Assembly: GCF_000828615.1 (NCBI RefSeq)
Contig: NZ_AP012273.1
Span: 2,790,001 to 2,854,000, forward strand
Direction of reading: 5' to 3'
Length of the DNA: 64,000 bases
Source: Thiolapillus brandeum
GTDB lineage: Bacteria; Pseudomonadota; Gammaproteobacteria; Chromatiales; Chromatiaceae
The notes under the pieces are model-generated. The model ran no database searches. It was not told the DNA's origin and was given only the letters and a program-made list of their open reading frames with translations. Below are positions 52,813-64,000 of this stretch, piece by piece (position 1 is the stretch's first letter; every line of letters starts with the position of its first letter). Made by a program: the position numbers and the translations under genes.

Positions 52813-54225
52813 TCAATACGCCTTCTGGTGCACAAACCCCTTGAACAAGGTGATAAAAATAATTTTCAGGTCGAACCACAAAGACCAGTTCTCAATGTAG
52901 TACAGGTCATACTCGACCCGCTTTTCCATCTTGTCCAGAGTATCGGTCTCCCCTCGCCAACCATTGATCTGGGCCCAACCAGTGATACCGGGCTTGACCC
53001 GGTGGCGCTGCATATAGGCTTCCACCTGGTCCTTGTACATCTCGTTGTGCGCCAGGGCGTGGGGGCGTGGCCCGACAATGGACATGCGTCCCTGCAACAC
53101 ATTGAAGAATTGGGGCAGTTCATCCAGGCTGGTACGGCGTAAAAAGGCGCCAAAGGGCGTCACTCTGGGGTCATTCTTCTTCGCCTGGGTCACCTGGCCG
53201 TCTTTCTCTTCATGGATCTCCATGGTGCGAAACTTGTACACGGTAATGGGCTTGCCATCCCAGCCATGGCGTTTCTGCTTGAACAGCACCGGCCCCGGTG
53301 AACTCAACTTGACCCCGAGAGCAATGATCACCAGCAATGGACTGATCAGCAACAGGATAATGAAAGCCAGCACCCGGTCTTCCACAGCCTTGATCAATCG
53401 GTTGGCGCCTTCCATGGGAGAAGCGCGCAAATCCAGAACCGGCACACCGGCCACCTCGGTAATGGAATGATTGAGCAGGCGGAACCCAAAGATATCCGGT
53501 ACCAGGCGGATCTTTACCGTACTGTGACGCAGCAGTTGCAGAATCTCCTGCATACGCTTTTCCGCCCGCAGAGGTAAAGCCAGCCAGATCTCATCCACAT
53601 AATCTTTCCTGTTTTCCAGTTGGCGGCAACCTTTCTCGCATGAAATCACCGGAATGCCGCCAACTTCCTTACCCTGTAGTCCAGGGTCATCATCCCAGAA
53701 AGAAACCAGATCATATCCCACCCACTGGGCATCAAGCAGTTGGCGGGCGACGTTCCTCCCCAGAGTTCCCGCCCCCACCACCACAATATGCCGGTGATTC
53801 AAGCCTTGGCGGCGCATATAGTTGAACACGACCCTCACCACCACCCTCACCAGCACCAACCCCAACCAGGCGATCCCCACCCAGCTGGCCGCCCAATACC
53901 GGGAATAGAGCGCGCCACTCTTGGTGCCAAAGGCCAGCAGCACCATGATCAACACCACCACACCCCAGGCCAGAGTGGTCATCCAGATCTGCTGCCATAG
54001 GCCTTTTCCGCGCCAGGAGTGATACAGCTTGAACAAAGGCAGGATGATCGCAGCCAGCAAGGCGCCCAGCACCAGCGCCAGCTCGTAGCTGCTTGTCAGC
54101 TCCAGATGATCGAAGCGGATATAGAATGCCAGGACACCGCCAAACACAACGATGCACAGATCCAGCAATCTTGCTGCAAAAGAAAAAACGGGTGAATATT
54201 CCCTGATCAACCCTTGTTTAAACAT
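52813..54225 (-). CDS. undecaprenyl-phosphate sugar-1-phosphate transferase (WcaJ-type, polyprenol-P hexose-1-P)
   Basis: A 470-aa protein starting at the ATG at 54225 with a GGAG site; the frame extends upstream without such a site. The N-terminal half has four or five hydrophobic helices, then a Rossmann-like CoA-binding-type domain (HIVVVGAGTLGRNVARQL, about 165-182). The C-terminal catalytic domain has SSPGPVLFKQKRHGWDGK (about 318-335), YKFRTM, RRTSLDELPQFFNVL and GPRPHALAHNE, the bacterial sugar transferase signature. It starts exopolysaccharide repeat units on the lipid carrier. It matches the TIGR03023-type glucose transferases best. Confidence 0.92.
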   Translation of the reverse strand: MFKQGLIREYSPVFSFAARLLDLCIVVFGGVLAFYIRFDHLELTSSYELALVLGALLAAIILPLFKLYHSWRGKGLWQQIWMTTLAWGVVVLIMVLLAFGTKSGALYSRYWAASWVGIAWLGLVLVRVVVRVVFNYMRRQGLNHRHIVVVGAGTLGRNVARQLLDAQWVGYDLVSFWDDDPGLQGKEVGGIPVISCEKGCRQLENRKDYVDEIWLALPLRAEKRMQEILQLLRHSTVKIRLVPDIFGFRLLNHSITEVAGVPVLDLRASPMEGANRLIKAVEDRVLAFIILLLISPLLVIIALGVKLSSPGPVLFKQKRHGWDGKPITVYKFRTMEIHEEKDGQVTQAKKNDPRVTPFGAFLRRTSLDELPQFFNVLQGRMSIVGPRPHALAHNEMYKDQVEAYMQRHRVKPGITGWAQINGWRGETDTLDKMEKRVEYDLYYIENWSLWFDLKIIFITLFKGFVHQKAY

Positions 54226-54387
54226 GATTCTCCATTGGGATAGATGTAAAGCCCTTGCGCATGTTATCTTCTCAGACCACGCGCCTGCTGCCGGGATAGC
54301 GGCCGCCGACAGTAATTTTACTGTGTAAATGCCTGCTCCGATACATCGGAAAGCCCCTCTTCTTCCATTGGTGTAAACAGCAGGAAC
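54226..54387. promoter_or_regulatory. divergent intergenic region with a perfect 7-bp-arm palindrome
   Basis: The 162 bases between the divergent wcaJ-type gene and the membrane protein contain ACAGTAA-TT-TTACTGT (54309-54324), a dyad of the size of an operator, and a short dyad CCGAT-AC-ATCGG (about 54336-54348). Regulation of the exopolysaccharide genes from here is plausible. The binding protein is unknown. Confidence 0.45.
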
Positions 54388-55626
54388 ATGGACACACCTA
54401 TGGACAGTATGCCTCCAGGACAAAAACGCACTCCATGCGCCTTGCCGGCCATCGCAGCCCTGGCCATCAGCGCAATCACGCTCATCATGGGCTATGTCTT
54501 GTGGCACATGCCGGATACCACGGGCACGGACGGCCTCGCTCCCCTGGAGATTTCCGGCAGCGATATCATGTTCGACCCCCACCTGGGGAAGCGCCTTCCC
54601 CAGGGTGTTGAAGTACAGGCACCCGGAGCTGATCAGCAAAGCATACTACTGCTATCCCGCACCGGCTTTCAGGCAGAGCAATACCCGCTGCTCCACTACC
54701 GCATTGCCAACCGTTCACCCGGCCTGAAAATTGCCTTGTTCTGGCGCAGCAGTGCTACTCCTGAAACCACGCGCTTTGTGGATCTGCAGCAAAACCTGAC
54801 CGGACAAGGCATTCTCTCCCTGGAACACAACACCTGGTGGAAAGGAACCATCACTGATCTCGGGTTCAACATTCAGGGAGGACGCCCTGGTGATACGAGC
54901 ATCATCCGCGACCTGAAGTTTTCCCCGCCGGGAACCATAACCCTGCTTCAAACCATTCTTGCGGACTGGACCAGCGTAGAAGCCTGGAGCATGTCCTCCA
55001 TAAATTTTCTTTTCAACGCCAGCCCCCACTCACGCCTGTCTCCCGTTGTGGCCACTGCATGCTGGTTGGGGCTGGCCCTGCTCCTGTATGCCGGATGGAA
55101 CTTCAAACAGTATCACAGGCTCTTTCCACGCCCATGCCGCGGAGGCCTGCTCCTGTTGATCGCGATTCCCTGGCTCATGTTATACGCGCGCTGGCAACTC
55201 AACTACTGGACTCAGCTCAATGAGACGCGGCAACTGTATTCGGGAAAAACCCAGAACGAAAAACACCTGCTGGCGGAAGATGCTGTTATCTACCGCTATG
55301 CGCAACACCTGAAAAACCAGGTGCTGCCACAATCACCTGCCCGCATCATCATTCTGCGCAAGGCCTACCGGGATTACCTGCGTCTCAAACTTCAATACTA
55401 TCTGCTTCCCCATAACAGCTATAACTATGACAGTTTCCCTCAGGCAGACTATTTGCAGAACGGAGACTACCTGCTGATTCTGGGCGATATCCCCGGTCTG
55501 CAGTACAACCAGGCCAATAAACGACTTGAATGGACTCAGGGCCGGCACCTCAGGGCAAAGCTACTGGATGAATCCCCTCTTGGGCGCCTGTACCAGGTTG
55601 ATTCTTCCGGGGAGGATCAAGGATGA
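54388..55626 (+). CDS. integral membrane protein of unknown function, exopolysaccharide locus
   Basis: A 412-aa protein that I cannot assign. It has a helix at about 20-40 (LPAIAALAISAITLIMGYVLW), a long extracytoplasmic segment (about 41-225), then two further helices at about 225-243 and 253-271, and a soluble tail of about 140 residues with many tyrosines (YYLLPHNSYNYDS near 340). The topology suits a subunit that works with a membrane glycosyltransferase. It is coupled by a 4-base overlap to the next gene, a larger membrane protein, so the two likely act together. Confidence 0.7.
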   Translation: MDTPMDSMPPGQKRTPCALPAIAALAISAITLIMGYVLWHMPDTTGTDGLAPLEISGSDIMFDPHLGKRLPQGVEVQAPGADQQSILLLSRTGFQAEQYPLLHYRIANRSPGLKIALFWRSSATPETTRFVDLQQNLTGQGILSLEHNTWWKGTITDLGFNIQGGRPGDTSIIRDLKFSPPGTITLLQTILADWTSVEAWSMSSINFLFNASPHSRLSPVVATACWLGLALLLYAGWNFKQYHRLFPRPCRGGLLLLIAIPWLMLYARWQLNYWTQLNETRQLYSGKTQNEKHLLAEDAVIYRYAQHLKNQVLPQSPARIIILRKAYRDYLRLKLQYYLLPHNSYNYDSFPQADYLQNGDYLLILGDIPGLQYNQANKRLEWTQGRHLRAKLLDESPLGRLYQVDSSGEDQG

Positions 55627-57035
55627 CCGGACTGCTGCTGGCACTATGCCTGCCTCCCGCCCTGGGTATCGCCTGGCTATCCCGCTATTGGAAAAGCAGC
55701 CACTGGAGCGCCATTGCCGGTTATGGTTTCCTGTTGGGAATATTGGCAACCACCCTGCTGATGCAACTGTGGAATGCCCTGGGCCTGAAACTGGCGTTCT
55801 ATCCCATGGCCGCAATACTGGCGGCGCTTACCCTGTTGGCATTCTACAAGCGGCCTCTCCGCCAGGCATCCACACCCCCCCCTTCCACACCGGTGAAGAG
55901 CGTGGGGGGCAAATGGTTGTTCTGGCTGCTTGCGGGATTGCTGCTGCTTCAGTACGGCGGCATCCTGCTGGAGATCATCTGGCGGCCTCTGTATCCCTGG
56001 GATGCATGGATGAACTGGGCACCCAAGGCGCGGGTATGGTTTGAATTCAGGGAACTGGTTCCCTGGATCAGCAGGGCAGCGTGGCTGCACCTGGAGCCCG
56101 GAGAACTGGCCTATACCCTGGGCAACCCCAAGGCATCCCTCTACCCCCCATTGGTTCCCCTGGTACAGACCTGGATGGCATTGGGGCTGGGAGCATGGAA
56201 CGACAGCCTGATCAACCTGCCCTGGCTGCTCTGCAGCATCACCCTGGGGCTCGGGCTGTACGGCCAGGCCAGGAATCTGGGCAGTTCTCCCTTATCGGCT
56301 ATGCTAGTGACATTTGGCGTATTGAGCCTTCCGTATGTGAGTATTCACACGGCCCTGGCAGGTTATGCGGATCTGTGGCTCAGCACTTTTATCAGCCTGG
56401 GAGCCATCGCTTTTTTCCTCTGGACTCTGACCCGTGATCCCAGGCAACTGATCCTGGCAATACTCATGGCCATTGCCGCCACCCAGACCAAGGTGCCTGG
56501 TATCGCCTGGGTGGCAATGCTCATCCTTGCTTGGCTATTGAGCGTTGCACCACGTATCACCATCACCGGTATTCTTGGCGGCATCCTTGTTCTGTCCTAC
56601 CTGTGGATTTCGGGAGGCACGAGTATGGATATTCCCCTGCTGGGCAGGCTCGTTCTTTCCCCGGAACGAATCACCCTGCCGGGAATCGACTCATTCACCC
56701 TCGATTACCATCCCGTATGGAAAGCCTTTTGGCAGGCATGGTGGGTGCAGGGAAGCTGGCTGTTCTTTGGGTGGCTGTTTCCCCTGGTGCTGATCTATGC
56801 CATCTTCAGCAGAAGACTGTCGCCCAGGCTGTTGCCCGCAACGTTTCTCGTGGTGGAAGCGTTCCTGTTCCTGTTCATCACCTTCTTTTTCACCTACCAC
56901 TACGCTTCGGCTCTGGACGGTACGACTATCAACAGAGCCACCCTGCACATGGTCCCCATGCTGTTCTTCTACCTGCTGTTGCTATTCCAGCCAAAGGAAA
57001 CAGCAAACACGGCCCGGGAACACCTTCACCAGTAA
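55623..57035 (+). CDS. polytopic membrane protein, GT-C glycosyltransferase-like
   Basis: A 470-aa protein with about ten hydrophobic helices. It shows a loop YPWDAWMNWAPKARVWFEF (about 125-143) after the first helices, with an aspartate, as in GT-C enzymes that use lipid-linked sugars. PLVPLVQTWMALGLGAWND and TKVPGIAWVAMLIL are further features. I infer a GT-C (family 39-like) fold; no signature is decisive. It is coupled to the 54388 gene. The two may modify or assemble the exopolysaccharide. A hairpin TTCACCAGT/ACTGGTGAA (57025-57048) covers its stop. Confidence 0.65.
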   Translation: MTGLLLALCLPPALGIAWLSRYWKSSHWSAIAGYGFLLGILATTLLMQLWNALGLKLAFYPMAAILAALTLLAFYKRPLRQASTPPPSTPVKSVGGKWLFWLLAGLLLLQYGGILLEIIWRPLYPWDAWMNWAPKARVWFEFRELVPWISRAAWLHLEPGELAYTLGNPKASLYPPLVPLVQTWMALGLGAWNDSLINLPWLLCSITLGLGLYGQARNLGSSPLSAMLVTFGVLSLPYVSIHTALAGYADLWLSTFISLGAIAFFLWTLTRDPRQLILAILMAIAATQTKVPGIAWVAMLILAWLLSVAPRITITGILGGILVLSYLWISGGTSMDIPLLGRLVLSPERITLPGIDSFTLDYHPVWKAFWQAWWVQGSWLFFGWLFPLVLIYAIFSRRLSPRLLPATFLVVEAFLFLFITFFFTYHYASALDGTTINRATLHMVPMLFFYLLLLFQPKETANTAREHLHQ

Positions 57036-57125: not shown

Positions 57126-57148
57126 AAGGGAGCGCAATGCGCTCCCTT
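57126..57148. terminator. hairpin terminator between convergent genes
   Basis: AAGGGAGCGC (57126-57135), loop AAT, GCGCTCCCTT (57139-57148). It is preceded by AAAA and lies between the membrane protein gene and the SLH protease gene that run towards each other. Confidence 0.75.
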
Positions 57149-57168: not shown

Positions 57169-58740
57169 CTACAAGTTAAAGGTACGCACCAGGAATACCG
57201 CCATTTGCGCTCGGGTCACGTTACTATCCGGGCAGTAGTTACTGCTATCACAACCGGAAGTGATATTTTCAGAAACCAGCTGCTCTATCCAACTGGCTGC
57301 CCAGTAGTCCACGGGCACGTCGTCAAACAACGTGCCTGTAGCTGCTGGTGGCGCATAGGCTGAGCCATGCTCGGAACGCAGCAGAAAAATGGACATCTGC
57401 GCCCGGGTCACATTGTCATCCGGGCAGTAGTCGCTGCCACCGCAGCCTCCCGTGATGCCATCTGAAGCCAGCTGTTCAACCCATGCCGCCGCCCAGTAAC
57501 TCAACGGAACATCCGTAAAAACGGTACCCGACGCCGCAGGCGGCGTGTATTCGCTGCCATTGATTCCCCGTTCCAGAAAAACCGCCATTTCGGCGCGGGT
57601 GACGGGATCCTCCGGACAATAGTTGTTTCCACCACAGCCCGAGGTTATACCACTGGACCCCAGGGTCTGAATGAAATCGTAAGCCCAGTAATCGAAAGGC
57701 ACATCATCGAACAGCGGCCCGGTATAGACATCATTGAAAAACCAGTTGGCGGTGTCATTGAAATAAATGTCCGCAGATGAGATCACCACGTGATCTGTGG
57801 CAACAAAACTCCCGCCAACCGAGCACTGGGCAAACCCCGTCTCGGAATTGTCAAACTGCAGATTGACATCGCAATCCGTACTCGTGATTCCCTGATAAAC
57901 CAGGCGAATACTGTAATCATCCGCTGTCGAAGCGGTTTCATCGATACCACTGATGGCATAGCCCAAGGTCGCCACATCGTCAGCAGCCAGCGTACGTTGA
58001 GCTTCATCATTCATAGTGCCCTGCTGCATCACGGCTTCCGTATCCGCCACACCCAGCAATACACCCACACTGCGATCTGCATTGGCGGCGAAAAGGTGCC
58101 CATTGGGAAGTTGCCCCAGATCACGAGAATAAGTACTCGAATCCACGACCGAATCCAGGGTGAAGGGATTATTGTTGGAAATACGGAACCAGTGCAGGTT
58201 GACATCATCACCCCGGACATCATCACTGGAGCCTATCACCCCATCCACACCTGCATCCAGGTTGAACACACCATCAACGCCCTTGGTCGCCTTGGTATAG
58301 TTTGTATCGCCCCCGGAAAGACCTGACTCAGAGGCTGCGTTGGGGTGTGCCATTCCCAGGCAATGTCCCATCTCATGAAGGACCACAGATTCAAAATCCA
58401 CCTCACCAGCAGGAATATTAGTGTCTGCATCAAACAACAGGTTTCCCGTGGTGGCTTGCCGGGCATTATATGTCGCCACCACATTGCGCACCGATGTCTC
58501 CATGTCGGTGGCATGAGGGTCTGCTGGATTGATACATACTTTCACGACGACTTCCTGGTTGGCGCCAGTACCGGTATACCCCGAAGGATGGGTAACGATA
58601 TCCAATCCATTGGAATCTCCTGCAAACATATAAGTGCCAGCCTGAACACCAGCAGCTGCCACGCAAAGCATAGCGCCCGCCAGGGGAATCAGAATGGAAG
58701 AGCCGGGCTCGCCTGTGGCAATTCTTTTCTTTGCAATCAC
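57169..58740 (-). CDS. secreted metzincin-type protease with three C-terminal SLH domains
   Basis: A 523-aa exported protein. A signal peptide (about 15-35) precedes a zinc metzincin domain with HEMGHCLGMAH (H122-H131, the HExxHxxGxxH motif) and a plausible Met-turn near EAVMQQGTMND. The C-terminus carries three S-layer homology repeats at 343-406, 407-470 and 471-523. Each has a DVPxxYW start, a GC...YCP pair and a VTRAEMAVFL or VTRAQM motif. SLH trimers anchor proteins to surface glycans. A disulfide in each repeat is inferred. It is 17 bases after the small exported gene, and in the same direction. Confidence 0.88.
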   Translation of the reverse strand: MIAKKRIATGEPGSSILIPLAGAMLCVAAAGVQAGTYMFAGDSNGLDIVTHPSGYTGTGANQEVVVKVCINPADPHATDMETSVRNVVATYNARQATTGNLLFDADTNIPAGEVDFESVVLHEMGHCLGMAHPNAASESGLSGGDTNYTKATKGVDGVFNLDAGVDGVIGSSDDVRGDDVNLHWFRISNNNPFTLDSVVDSSTYSRDLGQLPNGHLFAANADRSVGVLLGVADTEAVMQQGTMNDEAQRTLAADDVATLGYAISGIDETASTADDYSIRLVYQGITSTDCDVNLQFDNSETGFAQCSVGGSFVATDHVVISSADIYFNDTANWFFNDVYTGPLFDDVPFDYWAYDFIQTLGSSGITSGCGGNNYCPEDPVTRAEMAVFLERGINGSEYTPPAASGTVFTDVPLSYWAAAWVEQLASDGITGGCGGSDYCPDDNVTRAQMSIFLLRSEHGSAYAPPAATGTLFDDVPVDYWAASWIEQLVSENITSGCDSSNYCPDSNVTRAQMAVFLVRTFNL

Positions 58741-58757
58741 TGTATCGTCCTCCCGGT

Positions 58758-59309
58758 TCAGTCCAGTTTTTTCATGTGCGGATGGTGCAGTAGTTTCTGC
58801 AAAAAGCGCTCTGTTTCTGCCAGATCCACCAGATCCTGCACTTGAGAGTACCTTTGGGCATCATTCTGCAGATTGGACCACTCGATGGTTCTGCCGGGTT
58901 CACTCCCCCCCGGCGACACCTTGAGGATCGTATAGGTGTTGTCTGAAATGGCGAACAACTGTGCTCCCTGAACGCGGCTTGCCGCTTCAGCCATGTGTAA
59001 TTTTTCTGCAAGAGCACTCTTGTTGAAGGCCGTGACAGACTTACGCGCCATGCGGTCACTCAGAATTTTCATCTCCTCGCCGGTAAGAAAATACTCATAA
59101 TCACCAGCCTGTTTCATGTACGCCGGCAAATGCACCTGTACGCGCCCACTGTCGAAAACCCGCAACATGGGAATACCATCGTAAGCCACCATGTCATGGG
59201 TCTGGGAATAATTCAGCAATTGCTGCTCACCAGAGGGAGCAGCCATGGCTACTGACAGCCAACTGCTACAGCTGACCAGCAAAACCAGTAAACGAAAAAT
59301 CTTAGCCAT
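58758..59309 (-). CDS. small exported protein, partner of the SLH protease
   Basis: A 183-aa protein read from the ATG at 59309; the frame extends to 59558 but only this start gives a signal peptide (MAKIFRLLVLLVSCSSWLSV, cut near AMA-AP). The mature part has a beta-strand-rich first half (VAYDGIPMLRVFDSGRVQVHLP) and a helical C-terminus (YSQVQDLVDLAETERFLQKLL). No known domain is evident. It is upstream of the protease with 17 bases between, so co-expression is expected. An inhibitor, chaperone or substrate role would be conjecture. Confidence 0.7.
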   Translation of the reverse strand: MAKIFRLLVLLVSCSSWLSVAMAAPSGEQQLLNYSQTHDMVAYDGIPMLRVFDSGRVQVHLPAYMKQAGDYEYFLTGEEMKILSDRMARKSVTAFNKSALAEKLHMAEAASRVQGAQLFAISDNTYTILKVSPGGSEPGRTIEWSNLQNDAQRYSQVQDLVDLAETERFLQKLLHHPHMKKLD

Positions 59310-59533
59310 ACTCTTGCTCTCCAAAAGGCTTGGGAAATCACTCAAACAAGACACCCGGTTAAGCCAGGTATCCTTATGCGGATAATTACCAAGAAAGTCA
59401 TCCCGGCGCTTGGCCAGACCGGTATCGGGGCACCAATTGTAGCAGCAGAACAGGAAGGTGTGGGAAGTCCGGTTTTCGATTGTGGCCGGTTTCTCAGCAT
59501 GGAAATAAACTGCCCCGGAAAAGGAACTCCCTT

Positions 59534-61066
59534 TCAGGGCTGGTGTTTTTCCCGCCATCGGCTTTCTCCCACCGACACGTGCTTGAACACCATGCGAAAC
59601 AGGCGTTTCAACAGATCAGGGCGGTTCATCACCCGCCAGGCGGCATAGACAGGGTGACGCAGGTAATAGCGCAGTATTTCCCTGGAGTATGCGGCGTTGT
59701 ACTCTTCCATCAGTCGTGAAATATCTTCCCTGCTGAAATCTTCAGTCGCCAGCAATGGGGCACCGTGACTCTGGGTGGCCATTCCCAGATCCCGGTCTCG
59801 CACATCTTCCTCCATGTAACCGTGCTTTAGGGCATCCTCATAAAGCTCAGTACCATACAAAGGGGTGGCAATGAGAACACTGGGTATGGCATCCGCCTCT
59901 CTGAGAAGCTTCAAAGCCAGATCCGTAGTGGCCCGCATGTCGTCCAGAGTCTCGCCAGGAAAACCGATGACAAAACTCAGGGCCGTGCGCAGGCGGATTT
60001 TCCTGCAATTGCGTATCACTTCAATGAGGTATTCCAGGGAAGTATCCTTCTTGATCACCTTGTCCAGGGTTTCCTGCCTGCCGGATTCCACCGCAATATT
60101 CAACTGTTTGCAGCCGGACTTCTTGATTTTCTTCAGAATCCGCATATTGAGGGTATCCCCACGCACGCCATTGGGCGTGTCCCAGCGAATATGCATTTGA
60201 TTGCCAATGATGCCATCCAGGATCTGCTCGAAGCGGCGCTTGTGCAAACTGAGATTGTCATCCTCGAAATGGAACTGGGAAATGCCGTATTGCTCCTGCA
60301 GCAGTTTCAGATGTTCGATCACATACTCCACGGAATGCCAACGGTATTTCCTGCCCATATGCAGAGCCACTGAGCAGAACACGCATTTGTAGGGGCAGCC
60401 CCGGCTGGTAAAGATGGATATCTGCGGCCCCTTGAAGTTGGAGCGGCTCAGATACAGGTAAGGGCTGTTCAGATAATCCGAAAAATCAATAAGATCGTAA
60501 GCAGGGAACGGAAACTTGTCCAACTGCTTGAGATATTCCCTGGGCTTGAACATCAGCAATCCGGCATGCATGGAGGCAACCCCCTCTATGCTGCTCAGGG
60601 ACTGGCCAGCCCCAAAGCGTTGCACGAATTCCCTGAAACTTTCCTCTCCTTCCCCCACCACGACATAATCGCATTTTCCCGATTGCAACAAGGCTTCATA
60701 ACGAATGGTGGCGTGGGGTCCCCCAAAGACCACCAGGGCATTGGGAGCAGCTTTGCGACTCAAAGCCGCCACTTCTTCCGCATATTCGGCCTGCGCCGTA
60801 AACGGCATGGAGATTCCAACGATGTCCGGCTGCAGCTCGGCGATACGCCGTTCTATGGCGGGCATGGGTGTGCCGAATACATCCATGCCATCCCTGTGTT
60901 CCATCGCAAAATCCGTCACCAGGCAATCGAGGATATGCAGTTCGCAGTGATCCCGGATCATGGAAGCGATGCTGAGAATTCCCAGGGGAAAATAAGTATT
61001 GAATGAAGCGGATTGGGGGGAATACCCCTGGGGTGGATTGATCAGCAGGACTCGAGGGGTATTCAT
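59534..61066 (-). CDS. B12-binding-type radical SAM protein
   Basis: A 510-aa protein starting at the ATG at 61066. The N-terminal part (1-190) is a B12-binding-like Rossmann region with INPPQGYSP and VFGGPHATIRYEALL. The radical SAM core has SRGCPYKCVFC with C224, C228 and C231 for the 4Fe-4S cluster, and SFVIGFPGETLDDM further on. This architecture makes methylases and other modifications of lipids, sugars or small molecules. No substrate can be read. It lies between the small exported gene and the pyruvyl-transferase gene in the same direction, with 91 bases to the latter. Confidence 0.87.
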   Translation of the reverse strand: MNTPRVLLINPPQGYSPQSASFNTYFPLGILSIASMIRDHCELHILDCLVTDFAMEHRDGMDVFGTPMPAIERRIAELQPDIVGISMPFTAQAEYAEEVAALSRKAAPNALVVFGGPHATIRYEALLQSGKCDYVVVGEGEESFREFVQRFGAGQSLSSIEGVASMHAGLLMFKPREYLKQLDKFPFPAYDLIDFSDYLNSPYLYLSRSNFKGPQISIFTSRGCPYKCVFCSVALHMGRKYRWHSVEYVIEHLKLLQEQYGISQFHFEDDNLSLHKRRFEQILDGIIGNQMHIRWDTPNGVRGDTLNMRILKKIKKSGCKQLNIAVESGRQETLDKVIKKDTSLEYLIEVIRNCRKIRLRTALSFVIGFPGETLDDMRATTDLALKLLREADAIPSVLIATPLYGTELYEDALKHGYMEEDVRDRDLGMATQSHGAPLLATEDFSREDISRLMEEYNAAYSREILRYYLRHPVYAAWRVMNRPDLLKRLFRMVFKHVSVGESRWREKHQP

Positions 61067-61157
61067 CAGACAAATCCCTGTCGCAAGGGGCACACACAGT
61101 ATTCCGGTTTATTCTTGGTTGTTTCCCGGAACCAGAACAAACCCTGAACCCACGGAT

Positions 61158-62273
61158 TCAGAGTGTTTCGATTATTCTGGCGAAATCCTTTGTAGTCAAG
61201 CTTTGGGACTCTGCTACATAGTCCCGCATACCGGACAGTACTTCCGGTTTCCTGTCCGCCAGATACCGCCTGCCCTGTATCACAAAATCCAGGGCCGCCG
61301 GTACATTTCCGTTCAACTCATAACAAAGGGGAGATAAGCCCAGATCAGCCATCAGGCCCGTCACTTTCTCATCATACGAAAATGCCAGCATGGGCTTTTC
61401 CAGCAACAAGGCCAGAATCAAGGCATGAAAACGCATGCCAAAAACCATCTCGCAGCCATCGAAAACAGCGCCAGCGCCTGCCAGCCCCTGGGCGGAATCC
61501 CAGGTTCGCACCTCACGCAGCGCCAGGGATGATCTCAATCGCTCACAGAACTCAATGTCCATCCTGGGATCAAAAGCGACCAGTACGGGATCAAGCCCCT
61601 GCTCCACCAGTCCCTTGATCAGCCCTACCCAGAATGAAAATCCTTCTTTCTTCCCCGACGGGTTCCATGGCCGTGGCGCTATGGCAACCAGGTTCTTCTG
61701 CACGGGCATGGCAACGTCTGGGCGCAGGATCTTACCCAAAGCCAGTACAGGATCCCTGGTCAGCCGGTAATCGTCACGGGGGCACAGTTCCCCGGCAATA
61801 TCGAGTGACAGTCGATCCCGCAGGCTTACGCTGGAAGCATGCCGCAGTATCTCATGCAGCAGATACCTCCCCGGAGCGCTTCTGGGCCTGCGCAAGCTGT
61901 TGGCAAACAGGGCATAAGGAATCCGTTTCTGTCTCAGGTAGAGAGTACGGGAATGCCAGCCGATCAAATGAGTAAGCGGCGTGTCATACAACAATCCTCC
62001 GGCGCCAATGATCACCCGGTCCGGCAGCGGCTGTCCTGTATTTCTGGCGTGCCGCCTGACGGTGTTCCTCAGACGCTGAAAATAGTCCGGCAGGTTCCTG
62101 TAGTCCAGCCAGCGTACCTGGGATTGAATTGCCTGAGATACCGTTGGTGAAAATGTATATAGCAACGGCTCCATCCCATTGGCTTCCAGGAAGCCCGATT
62201 CCGCCAAGCCAATGAGTTCATCACCAAGATTTCCACCGCCAAAGCCTCCCATGATGGCGCAGTTTGCACTCAT
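61158..62273 (-). CDS. polysaccharide pyruvyl transferase family protein
   Basis: A 371-aa protein read from the ATG at 62273, which overlaps the TGA of the flippase gene (ATGA). It opens with CAIMGGFGGGNLGDELIGLA (5-24), matching the GGxGxxNxGDE signature of the CsaB/WcaK-type family, and has AIAPRPWNPSGKK (about 204-216) and VFGMRFHALILALLLEKP (about 285-302), the conserved M-R-x-H-x-L block. Members add pyruvate ketals to surface glycans. This call is to family only; the acceptor is unknown. It lies in an exopolysaccharide operon with wzx and a polymerase. Confidence 0.88.
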   Translation of the reverse strand: MSANCAIMGGFGGGNLGDELIGLAESGFLEANGMEPLLYTFSPTVSQAIQSQVRWLDYRNLPDYFQRLRNTVRRHARNTGQPLPDRVIIGAGGLLYDTPLTHLIGWHSRTLYLRQKRIPYALFANSLRRPRSAPGRYLLHEILRHASSVSLRDRLSLDIAGELCPRDDYRLTRDPVLALGKILRPDVAMPVQKNLVAIAPRPWNPSGKKEGFSFWVGLIKGLVEQGLDPVLVAFDPRMDIEFCERLRSSLALREVRTWDSAQGLAGAGAVFDGCEMVFGMRFHALILALLLEKPMLAFSYDEKVTGLMADLGLSPLCYELNGNVPAALDFVIQGRRYLADRKPEVLSGMRDYVAESQSLTTKDFARIIETL

Positions 62274-63496
62274 GCCGCCTGGCCTCCTGTCAGGAACCCT
62301 GGAGCCTGAATACGCCTCAACCACCATGCCTGATAGGCAAATGCAATCAGGTGCGCAAGAATGACGGCAATGAGCAGCCCGCTAACACCATCTACAGGCA
62401 TGAGCAACCCTGCGGCGAGCCCAAGGGTGGCAAGGGCCGATACCAGGGACTGCAAGCGAATCCGGTGGTATCCATGAAAAGTCAGTAGGGTTCCCAAGTA
62501 TCCCAGGCCAACACGAAGCACCGCGATCACCGCAAAATAGGGCATGAATTGCGCCAGGTCCTGCAGTGCCTGCCCATACAGCAACCGAACCACCTGCAGC
62601 GGAAAACCCCAAAGGGGCAGCCAGACAGCCATTGCCAGGAAGAAGCACAACCCGAGATAGTATCGCTTGTGGATATCACCCTGCTCACCTCTCAGACGCG
62701 GCAGGAAAAACACCGTCAATATCTCAGTCAGCATCATGACCATGAGCACAACCCGCACACCTCCCTGGTACATGGCCAGTTGCTCCGGCAACAGCAGATA
62801 CATGAGTGTGGAATCCAGCAGCAACAGAGCATAGCCCACCAATGCAGTGACACCGTACAAAGACGAACGTTTCAGATATACGGCAATTCGCCGCCAGTGT
62901 AAAACCGGGTGATGAGCCGCCAGGTGCAGGTGGATGAAATATCCTCTGGAGACCAGCATCATCAACACACGCAACAGGAAAAATACCCCAATGACTGTCC
63001 ACAAGGACACCGCACCAACCAAGACCAGGAGTCCAACTCCAAGCAACACACCCAGACTGTAGAAAGTCTGAGTGACAGTCTCGACCTGGTAGCGTCCCTG
63101 CACTCTGAAGTGATAGAGATAGTGTTGTGACAAGGCCAGCATGACGGTAGAGAGCAGCAACATCAGGTAAGGAAGATAGTCCTCAGACAACTGCCCCCGG
63201 AAGGAAAACAATACCAGCCCCACACCGCCCATTAGCAGAAGACCCAGTGCACTGGTGATGTACTTCACTTTCAACAGAGCCGCGATCCGAAAATACCTGG
63301 CCCGTAACACCGCCTCCACCACCAGGAAGTAAAGGCCAAAATCCATCAGCACCAGGGCAAAGTTTGCCAACAGGAATATAAATGACAAACGCCCGAATTC
63401 TGCTTCATCCAGCAATCGGGCAAGCCAGAAGAATACCAGGCTGTTACCGGCAAAACGGGCAAAAAAGGAAAAACCGTTAAGCAGAAAATCCTTCAC
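62270..63496 (-). CDS. polysaccharide flippase (Wzx/MATE-like)
   Basis: A 408-aa polytopic membrane protein with about 12 helices, beginning FLLNGFSFFARFAGNSLVFFWLARLLDEAEFG (in parts). This beginning, where a helix runs into EFGRLSF, is typical of Wzx exporters of lipid-linked repeat units (PF01943/PF13440). ILTVFFLPRLRGEQGDIH corresponds to the usual mid-protein motif. It overlaps the pyruvyl-transferase gene by 4 bases and follows the polymerase-like gene by 8 bases. Confidence 0.85.
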   Translation of the reverse strand: MKDFLLNGFSFFARFAGNSLVFFWLARLLDEAEFGRLSFIFLLANFALVLMDFGLYFLVVEAVLRARYFRIAALLKVKYITSALGLLLMGGVGLVLFSFRGQLSEDYLPYLMLLLSTVMLALSQHYLYHFRVQGRYQVETVTQTFYSLGVLLGVGLLVLVGAVSLWTVIGVFFLLRVLMMLVSRGYFIHLHLAAHHPVLHWRRIAVYLKRSSLYGVTALVGYALLLLDSTLMYLLLPEQLAMYQGGVRVVLMVMMLTEILTVFFLPRLRGEQGDIHKRYYLGLCFFLAMAVWLPLWGFPLQVVRLLYGQALQDLAQFMPYFAVIAVLRVGLGYLGTLLTFHGYHRIRLQSLVSALATLGLAAGLLMPVDGVSGLLIAVILAHLIAFAYQAWWLRRIQAPGFLTGGQAA

Positions 63497-63504
63497 GAAA
63501 TCGG

Positions 63505-64000
63505 CTACGCGATGCCTGGCATCTGTGGCGATGAAACAGGCTTCCGTTCCTTGATGTCAAACCGCAATGCCAGCAGGCGCTTGCCCACCCACCAGGCGAT
63601 CAGTGCGGGCAGAAAACCGAAATACATGATTGGGATAACCCCCGAAGTCACCATTCTTGCCATATTCAGGGAAACCAGCAGCAGCAATATACGAGAATGG
63701 ACGTCTTTGGTTCCGGCCAGAAGCTCATACGCGCCCCCGGCAAACAGGCCCATGACAACAGCATGCAGAACCACCCCGGGGATGCCAAAATTCACATAGG
63801 CCTCACCAGGTGCAGTAACCGTGATCCCCCCACCGGGGAACTCCAGGTCAAACAGCTTCTTCAAGTAGTCTCCCAAAAACTCACCAGGCACGCCGGGAAC
63901 CCCCACCATCAGGTCATCGATAAAACTGCTCCCCAGGAAAAAACTGGTGTTGTCGAATTCAGTAAGTATGGTTTGCAGATTGCCGACATGTACAACAGCA
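63505..64000 (-). CDS. O-antigen/exopolysaccharide polymerase-like membrane protein, 5' end beyond window
   Basis: The open frame continues from 63505 to the right window edge without a stop (the ATG at 63909 is internal), so only the C-terminal 165 codons are seen. A segment NTSFFLGSSFIDDL, then PGGGITVTAPGEAYVNFGIPGV, is the periplasmic loop typical of Wzy-like polymerases, followed by hydrophobic helices (VVLHAVVMGLFAGGAYELL, ILLLLVSLNMARMVTSGV). The assignment is from topology and the loop, not from a decisive motif. Confidence 0.65.
   Translation of the reverse strand, partial: AVVHVGNLQTILTEFDNTSFFLGSSFIDDLMVGVPGVPGEFLGDYLKKLFDLEFPGGGITVTAPGEAYVNFGIPGVVLHAVVMGLFAGGAYELLAGTKDVHSRILLLLVSLNMARMVTSGVIPIMYFGFLPALIAWWVGKRLLALRFDIKERKPVSSPQMPGIA

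Follow-up and report, generated by a model that had tools for sequence, protein, structure and literature searches.

The polysaccharide locus and its genes

Positions 2790001-2854000 of contig C1 of the genome of the deep-sea sulfur bacterium Thiolapillus brandeum (G000; 3,153,637 bases in 3 contigs), the 64-kb window analysed here, include the gene for a secreted matrixin-like metalloprotease with three SLH repeats at its C-terminus and, on the same strand, a PF04230 gene whose product resembles the ketal-pyruvyl transferase CsaB. An earlier note on this DNA had observed a protease with a zinc site and three SLH repeats, a PF04230 gene, a Wzx-like flippase and a partial polymerase on one strand, and had proposed that the protease is displayed on a pyruvylated exopolysaccharide. 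The observation is confirmed by Pfam and NCBIfam scores and by the coordinates, and display on such a polymer is plausible and, judged from sequence, better supported than the window alone allowed. Coordinates refer to the window unless preceded by an L-number, which denotes a fetched locus; G-numbers denote the genomes compared.

In the protease (57169-58740, minus strand; 523 amino acids (aa)) Pfam recognises three SLH repeats (PF00395, 72.6 bits, E = 2.5e-20, cut-off 20.8) and a Matrixin domain (PF00413, 29.2 bits, E = 9.8e-7, cut-off 24). The repeats occupy residues 344-523 (57172-57711, minus strand) and are recognised by a repeat profile, AlphaFold2 and Foldseek. The zinc-binding motif HEMGHCLGMAH, read from the translation (residues 122-132; 58345-58377, minus strand), has the HExxHxxGxxH pattern, which together with the PF00413 score above its cut-off places the protein among the matrixin-like metzincins, with proteolysis as a predicted activity. 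Orthologs in three congeners are 74-85% identical, and both this motif and AVMQQGT, read as the Met-turn, are kept in all four proteins, with a single M/L change in the zinc motif. A Pfam scan of the protease gave no barrel family of the kind that would mark an OmpM-type tether. The adjoining gene (58758-59450, minus strand) encodes a small protein with a signal-peptide-like start and no Pfam match; it is a neighbour of the protease in all four genomes (G136, G137 and G138 in addition to T. brandeum; 56-61% identity), and one may guess that it is a chaperone or an inhibitor of the protease.

The transferase gene (61158-62273, minus strand) is the only one found by a PF04230 search of the genome, and it sits between two SLH genes. 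Its product scores 101.6 bits with PF04230 (cut-off 25.3; E = 9.3e-29 for a 389-aa reading of the same frame). The best NCBIfam model is CsaB (TIGR03609), with 106.9 bits over profile positions 3-291 of 301, followed by WcaK with 23.8. In CsaB, phosphoenolpyruvate (PEP) is bound by R148, R306, H308 and K328, with an R-x-H pattern and a lysine 20 positions after the histidine (PMC10435577). The putative counterparts, assigned by this spacing and by column conservation, are R152 and H283 (each in 27 of 27 PF04230 proteins), R281 (26/27) and K303 (25/27). A phmmer search with the transferase matched no solved structure, and an 11-row profile gave a weak match to Pvg1p (5AX7; 7e-5, over a short stretch).

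The protease gene and the PF04230 gene are 2,418 bp apart, and a second SLH gene, which lies beyond the window and encodes a protein of 1,571 aa, is found 5,178 bp from the PF04230 gene on its other side. For a random 1.1-kb gene on this chromosome, the nearest SLH gene is as close in 4.3% and the second in 0.75% of 200,000 draws.

One end of the polysaccharide locus is marked by a gene for a WcaJ-type undecaprenyl-phosphate glucose phosphotransferase (52813-54237, minus strand; TIGR03023, 568.9 bits, cut-off 410.75), and this flank is conserved in G137, G139 and G140. Next to it lie two plus-strand genes (54388-57035) for conserved cassette-flanking proteins of 412 and 470 aa, orthologs of which occur in congeners: both in G138, and the 470-aa one in G139 and G140. 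A palindromic terminator-like hairpin with a 10-bp stem (57126-57148) separates the convergent gene groups, and from the protease to the Wzy-like gene the whole series is on the minus strand. The B12-binding radical S-adenosylmethionine (SAM) protein (59534-61093, minus strand; PF02310 and PF04055) was dropped as a candidate component of the anchoring system, as its gene is not found between the same neighbours in G136; it is probably a passenger. The Wzx-like flippase (62270-63496, minus strand) matches PF01943 weakly (17.4 bits, cut-off 28.2, E = 0.003) and is named also from its position and from orthologs in two congeners (74-77% identity). The window ends within the gene for a Wzy-like polymerase, the 3' part of which (63505-64000, minus strand) scores 28.7 bits with TIGR04370 (cut-off 40); the complete gene (L010:7006-8235) extends past the window and encodes 409 aa, with a PF01901 score of 29.7 bits, above the cut-off of 24.2. 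Outside the window there follow, in turn, a Sel1-type protein (labelled by eye), a Wzz-like protein, the 1,571-aa protein with its SLH trio, two glycosyltransferases and WecB (478.8 bits, cut-off 210.15). As a Wzx/Wzy-type locus it contains WcaJ and a full Wzy-like protein above their cut-offs, and Wzx and Wzz matches below theirs.

SLH repeats in the genome and their predicted fold

A PF00395 search of the genome gave 38 domains at E <= 0.001 in 18 proteins, and a repeat profile, built on 36 repeats, found 44 repeats in the fetched loci, with three repeats in 13 proteins and one in five. The seed of this profile demanded Gly29 and a Cys pair, although not Arg43; without that condition Pfam gave the same 18 proteins. 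Repeat residues are numbered after PMC6081394, where Trp13, Gly29 and Arg43 are given as residues of the SLH pocket. Gly29, Cys30, Cys36 and Arg43 are present in 44 of 44 repeats and Trp13 in 35. All five, the pocket arginine among them, are present in each of the three protease repeats, and the third repeat aligns with a Sap repeat ungapped from Trp13 through Arg43. Because the Cys30/Cys36 pair is invariant, we infer a disulfide within each repeat. The protease and the transferase do not form a special pair: the protease is one of 18 SLH proteins. Kelch repeats, a sulfatase-like enzyme and a second reprolysin-like protease are among the passengers of this set.

The placement of the repeats bears on the alternative that the SLH trio is an export or sorting module or a structural spacer that binds no glycan. 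Such a role fits the C-terminal position of the SLH part in 16 of the 18 proteins and the five proteins with one repeat; on the other hand, the SLH part is N-terminal in two proteins of L016 and in a protein encoded beside a PF04230 gene in G563, and a spacer leaves the invariant Gly29 and Arg43 unexplained. We regard this alternative as very improbable. The two adjacent L016 proteins (L016:3169-7620, minus strand) carry one N-terminal SLH repeat each, together with long repeats and a common C-terminal part, and are perhaps homotrimers that assemble an SLH trio from three chains. A protein at L011:13953-14771 (minus strand) has at its end a hydrophobic stretch and an Arg-rich tail, resembling PEP-CTERM or IPTL-CTERM sorting signals.

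A second alternative concerns the place of the polymer: the trios would bind pyruvylated glycan, but one that is periplasmic or linked to peptidoglycan, and the exopolysaccharide would be incidental. This would resemble the outer-membrane tethers of Deinococcus-Thermus and cyanobacteria, which bind pyruvylated wall polymers by SLH domains (PMC10628300). It is also consistent with the protein at L024:4420-7158 (minus strand), which has 912 aa, N-terminal hydrophobic helices (judged by eye) and, besides a sulfatase domain, an SLH trio at the C-terminus; because this sulfatase-like protein looks inner-membrane-bound, its trio would be periplasmic. However, the SLH proteins other than this one appear, by eye, to be exported without a membrane anchor, the sole PF04230 gene found in the genome belongs to a WcaJ/Wzx/Wzy-type locus, and a tail-type protein on a viral contig, described below, has the same trio, which fits a ligand reachable from outside. 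A polymer of this kind is considered unlikely, and display outside the cell is the reading followed here.

The earlier note had also suggested modelling the SLH trimer. With an input of seven sequences, two of them from viral contigs, the best of five AlphaFold2 models reached a pLDDT of 91.5 and a pTM of 0.85 and was the only confident one of the five; a run with five sequences (pLDDT 40) was not used. This best model has the three-lobed SLH trimer fold, with TM scores of 0.82/0.85 against 3PYW. Its Foldseek matches in the PDB with E < 0.001, 15 in number, are all Sap or SpaA SLH chains (TMq 0.66-0.82), 11 from complexes with pyruvylated ligands and four unliganded. The best model matches SLH trimers known to bind pyruvyl-N-acetylmannosamine (pyruvyl-ManNAc). 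The polyamine-type SLH of OmpM1 matched the model poorly (E = 1.3; this chain is one SLH and not a trio).

Occurrence in congeners and in other classes

Among 10 genomes of the genus, four have SLH domains (33 to at least 39 each), and all four have PF04230. G136 and G137 keep the order protease, small protein, PF04230, Wzx, Sel1-type protein and 1,571-aa protein. Between the two, the radical SAM gene was found in G137 alone, and the Wzy-like and Wzz-like genes in G136 alone. G138 encodes the protease and the 1,571-aa SLH protein close together, and its adjoining polysaccharide cassette is another one that includes a different PF04230 protein; on this gene content, G138 has replaced its polysaccharide cassette by one with another PF04230 enzyme. 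The co-occurrence near wzx/wzy genes that the earlier note had led us to seek is thus found as the same arrangement in G136 and G137, but the SLH-rich G138 lacks this enzyme and has another PF04230 protein instead.

An independent case of SLH/PF04230 adjacency was found in another class. A profile of the Cys-type SLH trio, searched over 397 Pseudomonadota at E <= 1e-8, detected T. brandeum, G563 (29 hits) and a weak G803 match without the Cys pair. G563 has two PF04230 genes, one of which (L101:13316-14383) begins 24 bp past an SLH gene (L101:14408-17791) on the same strand, with a glycosyltransferase gene next; the SLH protein has an N-terminal trio together with cytochrome c and FG-GAP domains. 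Around the second PF04230 gene, no SLH gene lies within the 19 kb inspected. In 33 distinct SLH repeats from 11 proteins of G563, Trp13, Cys30, Cys36 and Arg43 are present in all and Gly29 in 25, being missing from third repeats only; the third repeat of SpaA is likewise without Gly29 (PMC6081394).

The PF04230 enzymes of G563 and G138 are 35% identical over 343 aa (212 bits), and a tree of 35 sequences joins them in a 100/100 clade. With the G563 enzyme as query against 61 genomes that match PF04230, G138 scored 215 bits and the best of the 59 others 54; a search with the G138 enzyme gave at most 43 bits among the 169 other genomes of the order sample (170 genomes, all of one family). Two genomes of different classes, both with many Cys-type SLH proteins, thus share an enzyme type found nowhere else in the samples. 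The adjacency in G563 and the enzyme common to G138 and G563 are further and partly independent events.

The order sample has SLH in 5 and PF04230 in 62 of its genomes. A class sample of 370 genomes has SLH in nine and PF04230 in 55 (53 above the cut-off), and both in T. brandeum, G327 and G480. A class-wide link between the two in Gammaproteobacteria was tested and is not significant, with PF04230 in 3 of 9 SLH genomes and in 52 of 361 others (p = 0.14). The SLH genomes were also typed by the Cys pair. The pair is present in every repeat seen in the T. brandeum proteins and in a G480 protein on contig C66, in one of the three repeats of G199 and of G419, and in no repeat seen in G324, G327, G469 and G533; the matched G327 repeat also lacks Arg43. 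PF04230 occurs in three of three Cys lineages (the genus, G480 and G563) against one of the seven class-sample SLH genomes outside these lineages (p = 0.033). The numbers compared are small, G480 is doubtful, and G563 and the seven were drawn from different samples. This coupling of Cys-type SLH with PF04230 is suggestive and not proof. In G480 the Cys-SLH gene is on a 3.1-kb contig and the PF04230 gene, of a third clade, on another, and the remaining SLH genes belong to another type, so that contamination is possible. The SLH proteins of G029, a genome of another genus, and of G803 lack the Cys pair and were excluded. Those of G029 are all on one contig (L033; G029:C178), which is possibly a contaminant, and a PF04230 search of G029 within the order sample found none.

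Weighing the anchoring proposal and its place among known systems

The analysis shows the sequences, the pocket residues, the predicted fold and the gene linkage. From them we infer that the enzyme transfers pyruvate, that ManNAc is the sugar and is bound by the trios, and that the polymer lies outside the cell. The locus would make a Wzx/Wzy-type surface polysaccharide, to the repeat of which the CsaB-like enzyme (61158-62273) would add ketal pyruvate, and WecB of the locus could supply UDP-ManNAc. The protease, the 1,571-aa protein and 11 of the other 16 SLH proteins would then dock on this polymer by the Gly29/Arg43 pocket of their Cys-pair trios, by analogy with Sap and SpaA on pyruvylated wall polymers. 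That such a polymer is pyruvylated by the CsaB-like enzyme and holds exported proteins by their Cys-pair SLH trios is a proposal for and against which we find the chances evenly balanced.

Several observations weigh against it. The CsaB score of the transferase is half of the curated cut-off (213.1), so that by this score the enzyme is not a CsaB equivalog. TIGR03609 matches 48 of the 170 order genomes and none above the cut-off; the top scores are 124.9 in G158, 107.8 in G136, 106.1 in T. brandeum and 99.7 in G137, with all further ones at 82 or below. That three of these four belong to genomes with the shared locus speaks for the proposal; G158, with the highest, has no SLH. The PEP residues do not single out this enzyme, because they are equally conserved where SLH is absent, most of the 27 proteins compared being from SLH-free genomes. 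A terminator-like hairpin and a promoter-like site stand at the end of the PF04230 gene (terminator-like sites number 24, with 10.6 in shuffles, and promoter-like ones 5, with 7.7), which makes co-transcription of protease and transferase uncertain. The linkage in T. brandeum, G136 and G137 counts as one event, because these genomes have a single common ancestor. The four other AlphaFold2 models are poor (pLDDT 57, 41, 38 and 36). The single-repeat proteins and the L024 protein belong here as well, and PF04230 without SLH is common in the order and class samples.

In a third alternative, decoration of the exopolysaccharide by the transferase has a purpose of its own, the SLH trios bind peptidoglycan, another polymer or each other, and the neighbourhood of the genes reflects a surface-structure island. 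In its favour, two of the six SLH-free genomes of the genus, G139 and G140, carry a PF04230 gene at this locus, six of the nine SLH genomes of the class sample are without PF04230, the L024 trio would be periplasmic, and other SLH domains bind polyamine-modified peptidoglycan (PMC10628300). Yet no SLH genome without PF04230 was seen to carry the Cys pair throughout its repeats (G199 and G419 as given above; G374 could not be typed), and the Cys lineages differ from the rest in their PF04230 content, within the limits of the small and partly doubtful comparison above. Moreover, Gly29 and Arg43 are invariant, the single-SLH chain of OmpM1 fits the model poorly, and the second enzyme type is common to two distant Cys-SLH genomes. 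Decoration alone is therefore considered doubtful, although less so than a periplasmic polymer.

The closest known counterparts of the anchoring proposed for T. brandeum are Sap of B. anthracis and SpaA of P. alvei with CsaB, which share with it the three-SLH module, the Trp13/Gly29/Arg43 pocket, the predicted fold, a PF04230 enzyme and a UDP-N-acetylglucosamine 2-epimerase. The P. alvei cluster csaB, tagA, tagO, slhA and spaA places SLH genes beside the transferase (PMC6801904), as in T. brandeum. The differences are the gammaproteobacterial host, the invariant Cys30/Cys36 in each repeat, the Wzx/Wzy-type locus, an enzyme below the CsaB cut-off and a putative ligand. Pyruvylated exopolysaccharides of Proteobacteria, xanthan and colanic acid, also have a PF04230 enzyme in the exopolysaccharide locus; to our knowledge, no SLH proteins are linked to them. 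Diderm Terrabacteria (Thermus, Deinococcus and cyanobacteria; OmpM-type) share the Gram-negative envelope, and there SLH binds pyruvylated polymer, as described for cyanobacteria and Deinococcus-Thermus (PMC10628300), but it tethers an outer-membrane protein to the wall, whereas the T. brandeum proteins are barrel-free and mostly have a C-terminal trio. Gracilicutes reportedly lack OmpM (PMC10628300).

The arrangement had been called unusual for Gram-negatives, which applies to Pseudomonadota, where SLH occurs but is rare (PMC6081394 names 41 species), and not to diderm Terrabacteria, where it is a known case (PMC10628300). For Bacillota, SLH proteins and CsaB are described as functionally coupled, and CsaB data exist for Thermus too (PMC6801904, PMC6030368). 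Since the literature thus states the anchoring principle for Bacillota, cyanobacteria and Deinococcus-Thermus, it is already known; what is new is that it would operate in this host group, with a Cys pair in each repeat, in an exopolysaccharide setting and with so large an SLH set. A literature search, which covered sources other than the full texts on SLH and Gammaproteobacteria, found no description of SLH display on pyruvylated polymer in Pseudomonadota, and the consulted main text of the T. brandeum genome paper has no mention of an S-layer or exopolysaccharide (PMC4136832).

Cys-type SLH trios are also encoded on viral contigs. On one IMG/VR contig, a protein of 447 aa (L121:3936-5279, minus strand) combines weak tail-protein matches with such a trio; one of its neighbours matches the central tail fiber J, and the other, of 1,257 aa and with no PHROG match, is read as a tape measure. 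A phage tail may here use the SLH module to grip a host glycan. Three unannotated faecal phage records have an SLH trio 28-32% identical to this one. On another IMG/VR contig, a Cys-type trio lies inside the reading frame of a flavin adenine dinucleotide (FAD)-dependent oxidoreductase (L120:2263-4296, plus strand). Among plasmids, 33 records have other SLH proteins, which among the 30 matches listed are mostly from Bacillota (26-34% identity).

What role could the disulfide-locked trio have in Pseudomonadota as a whole? A tentative answer, which we think has less than an even chance of being right and which goes beyond T. brandeum, is an anchoring specific to this phylum: disulfide-locked SLH trios would dock proteases, Kelch-repeat and cytochrome c proteins on a pyruvylated Wzx/Wzy polysaccharide. 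SLH genes and dedicated PF04230 enzymes would move jointly between classes, so that a replaced cassette has to come with another pyruvyl transferase, and phage tails would grip the same glycan by the same trio. If the anchoring holds, a cultured vent bacterium would display many exported proteins on its exopolysaccharide through one removable acid group, and the Cys-locked SLH fold may be handy for protein display. For one PF04230 enzyme of a Gram-negative exopolysaccharide locus, the proposal also offers a role that can be tested.

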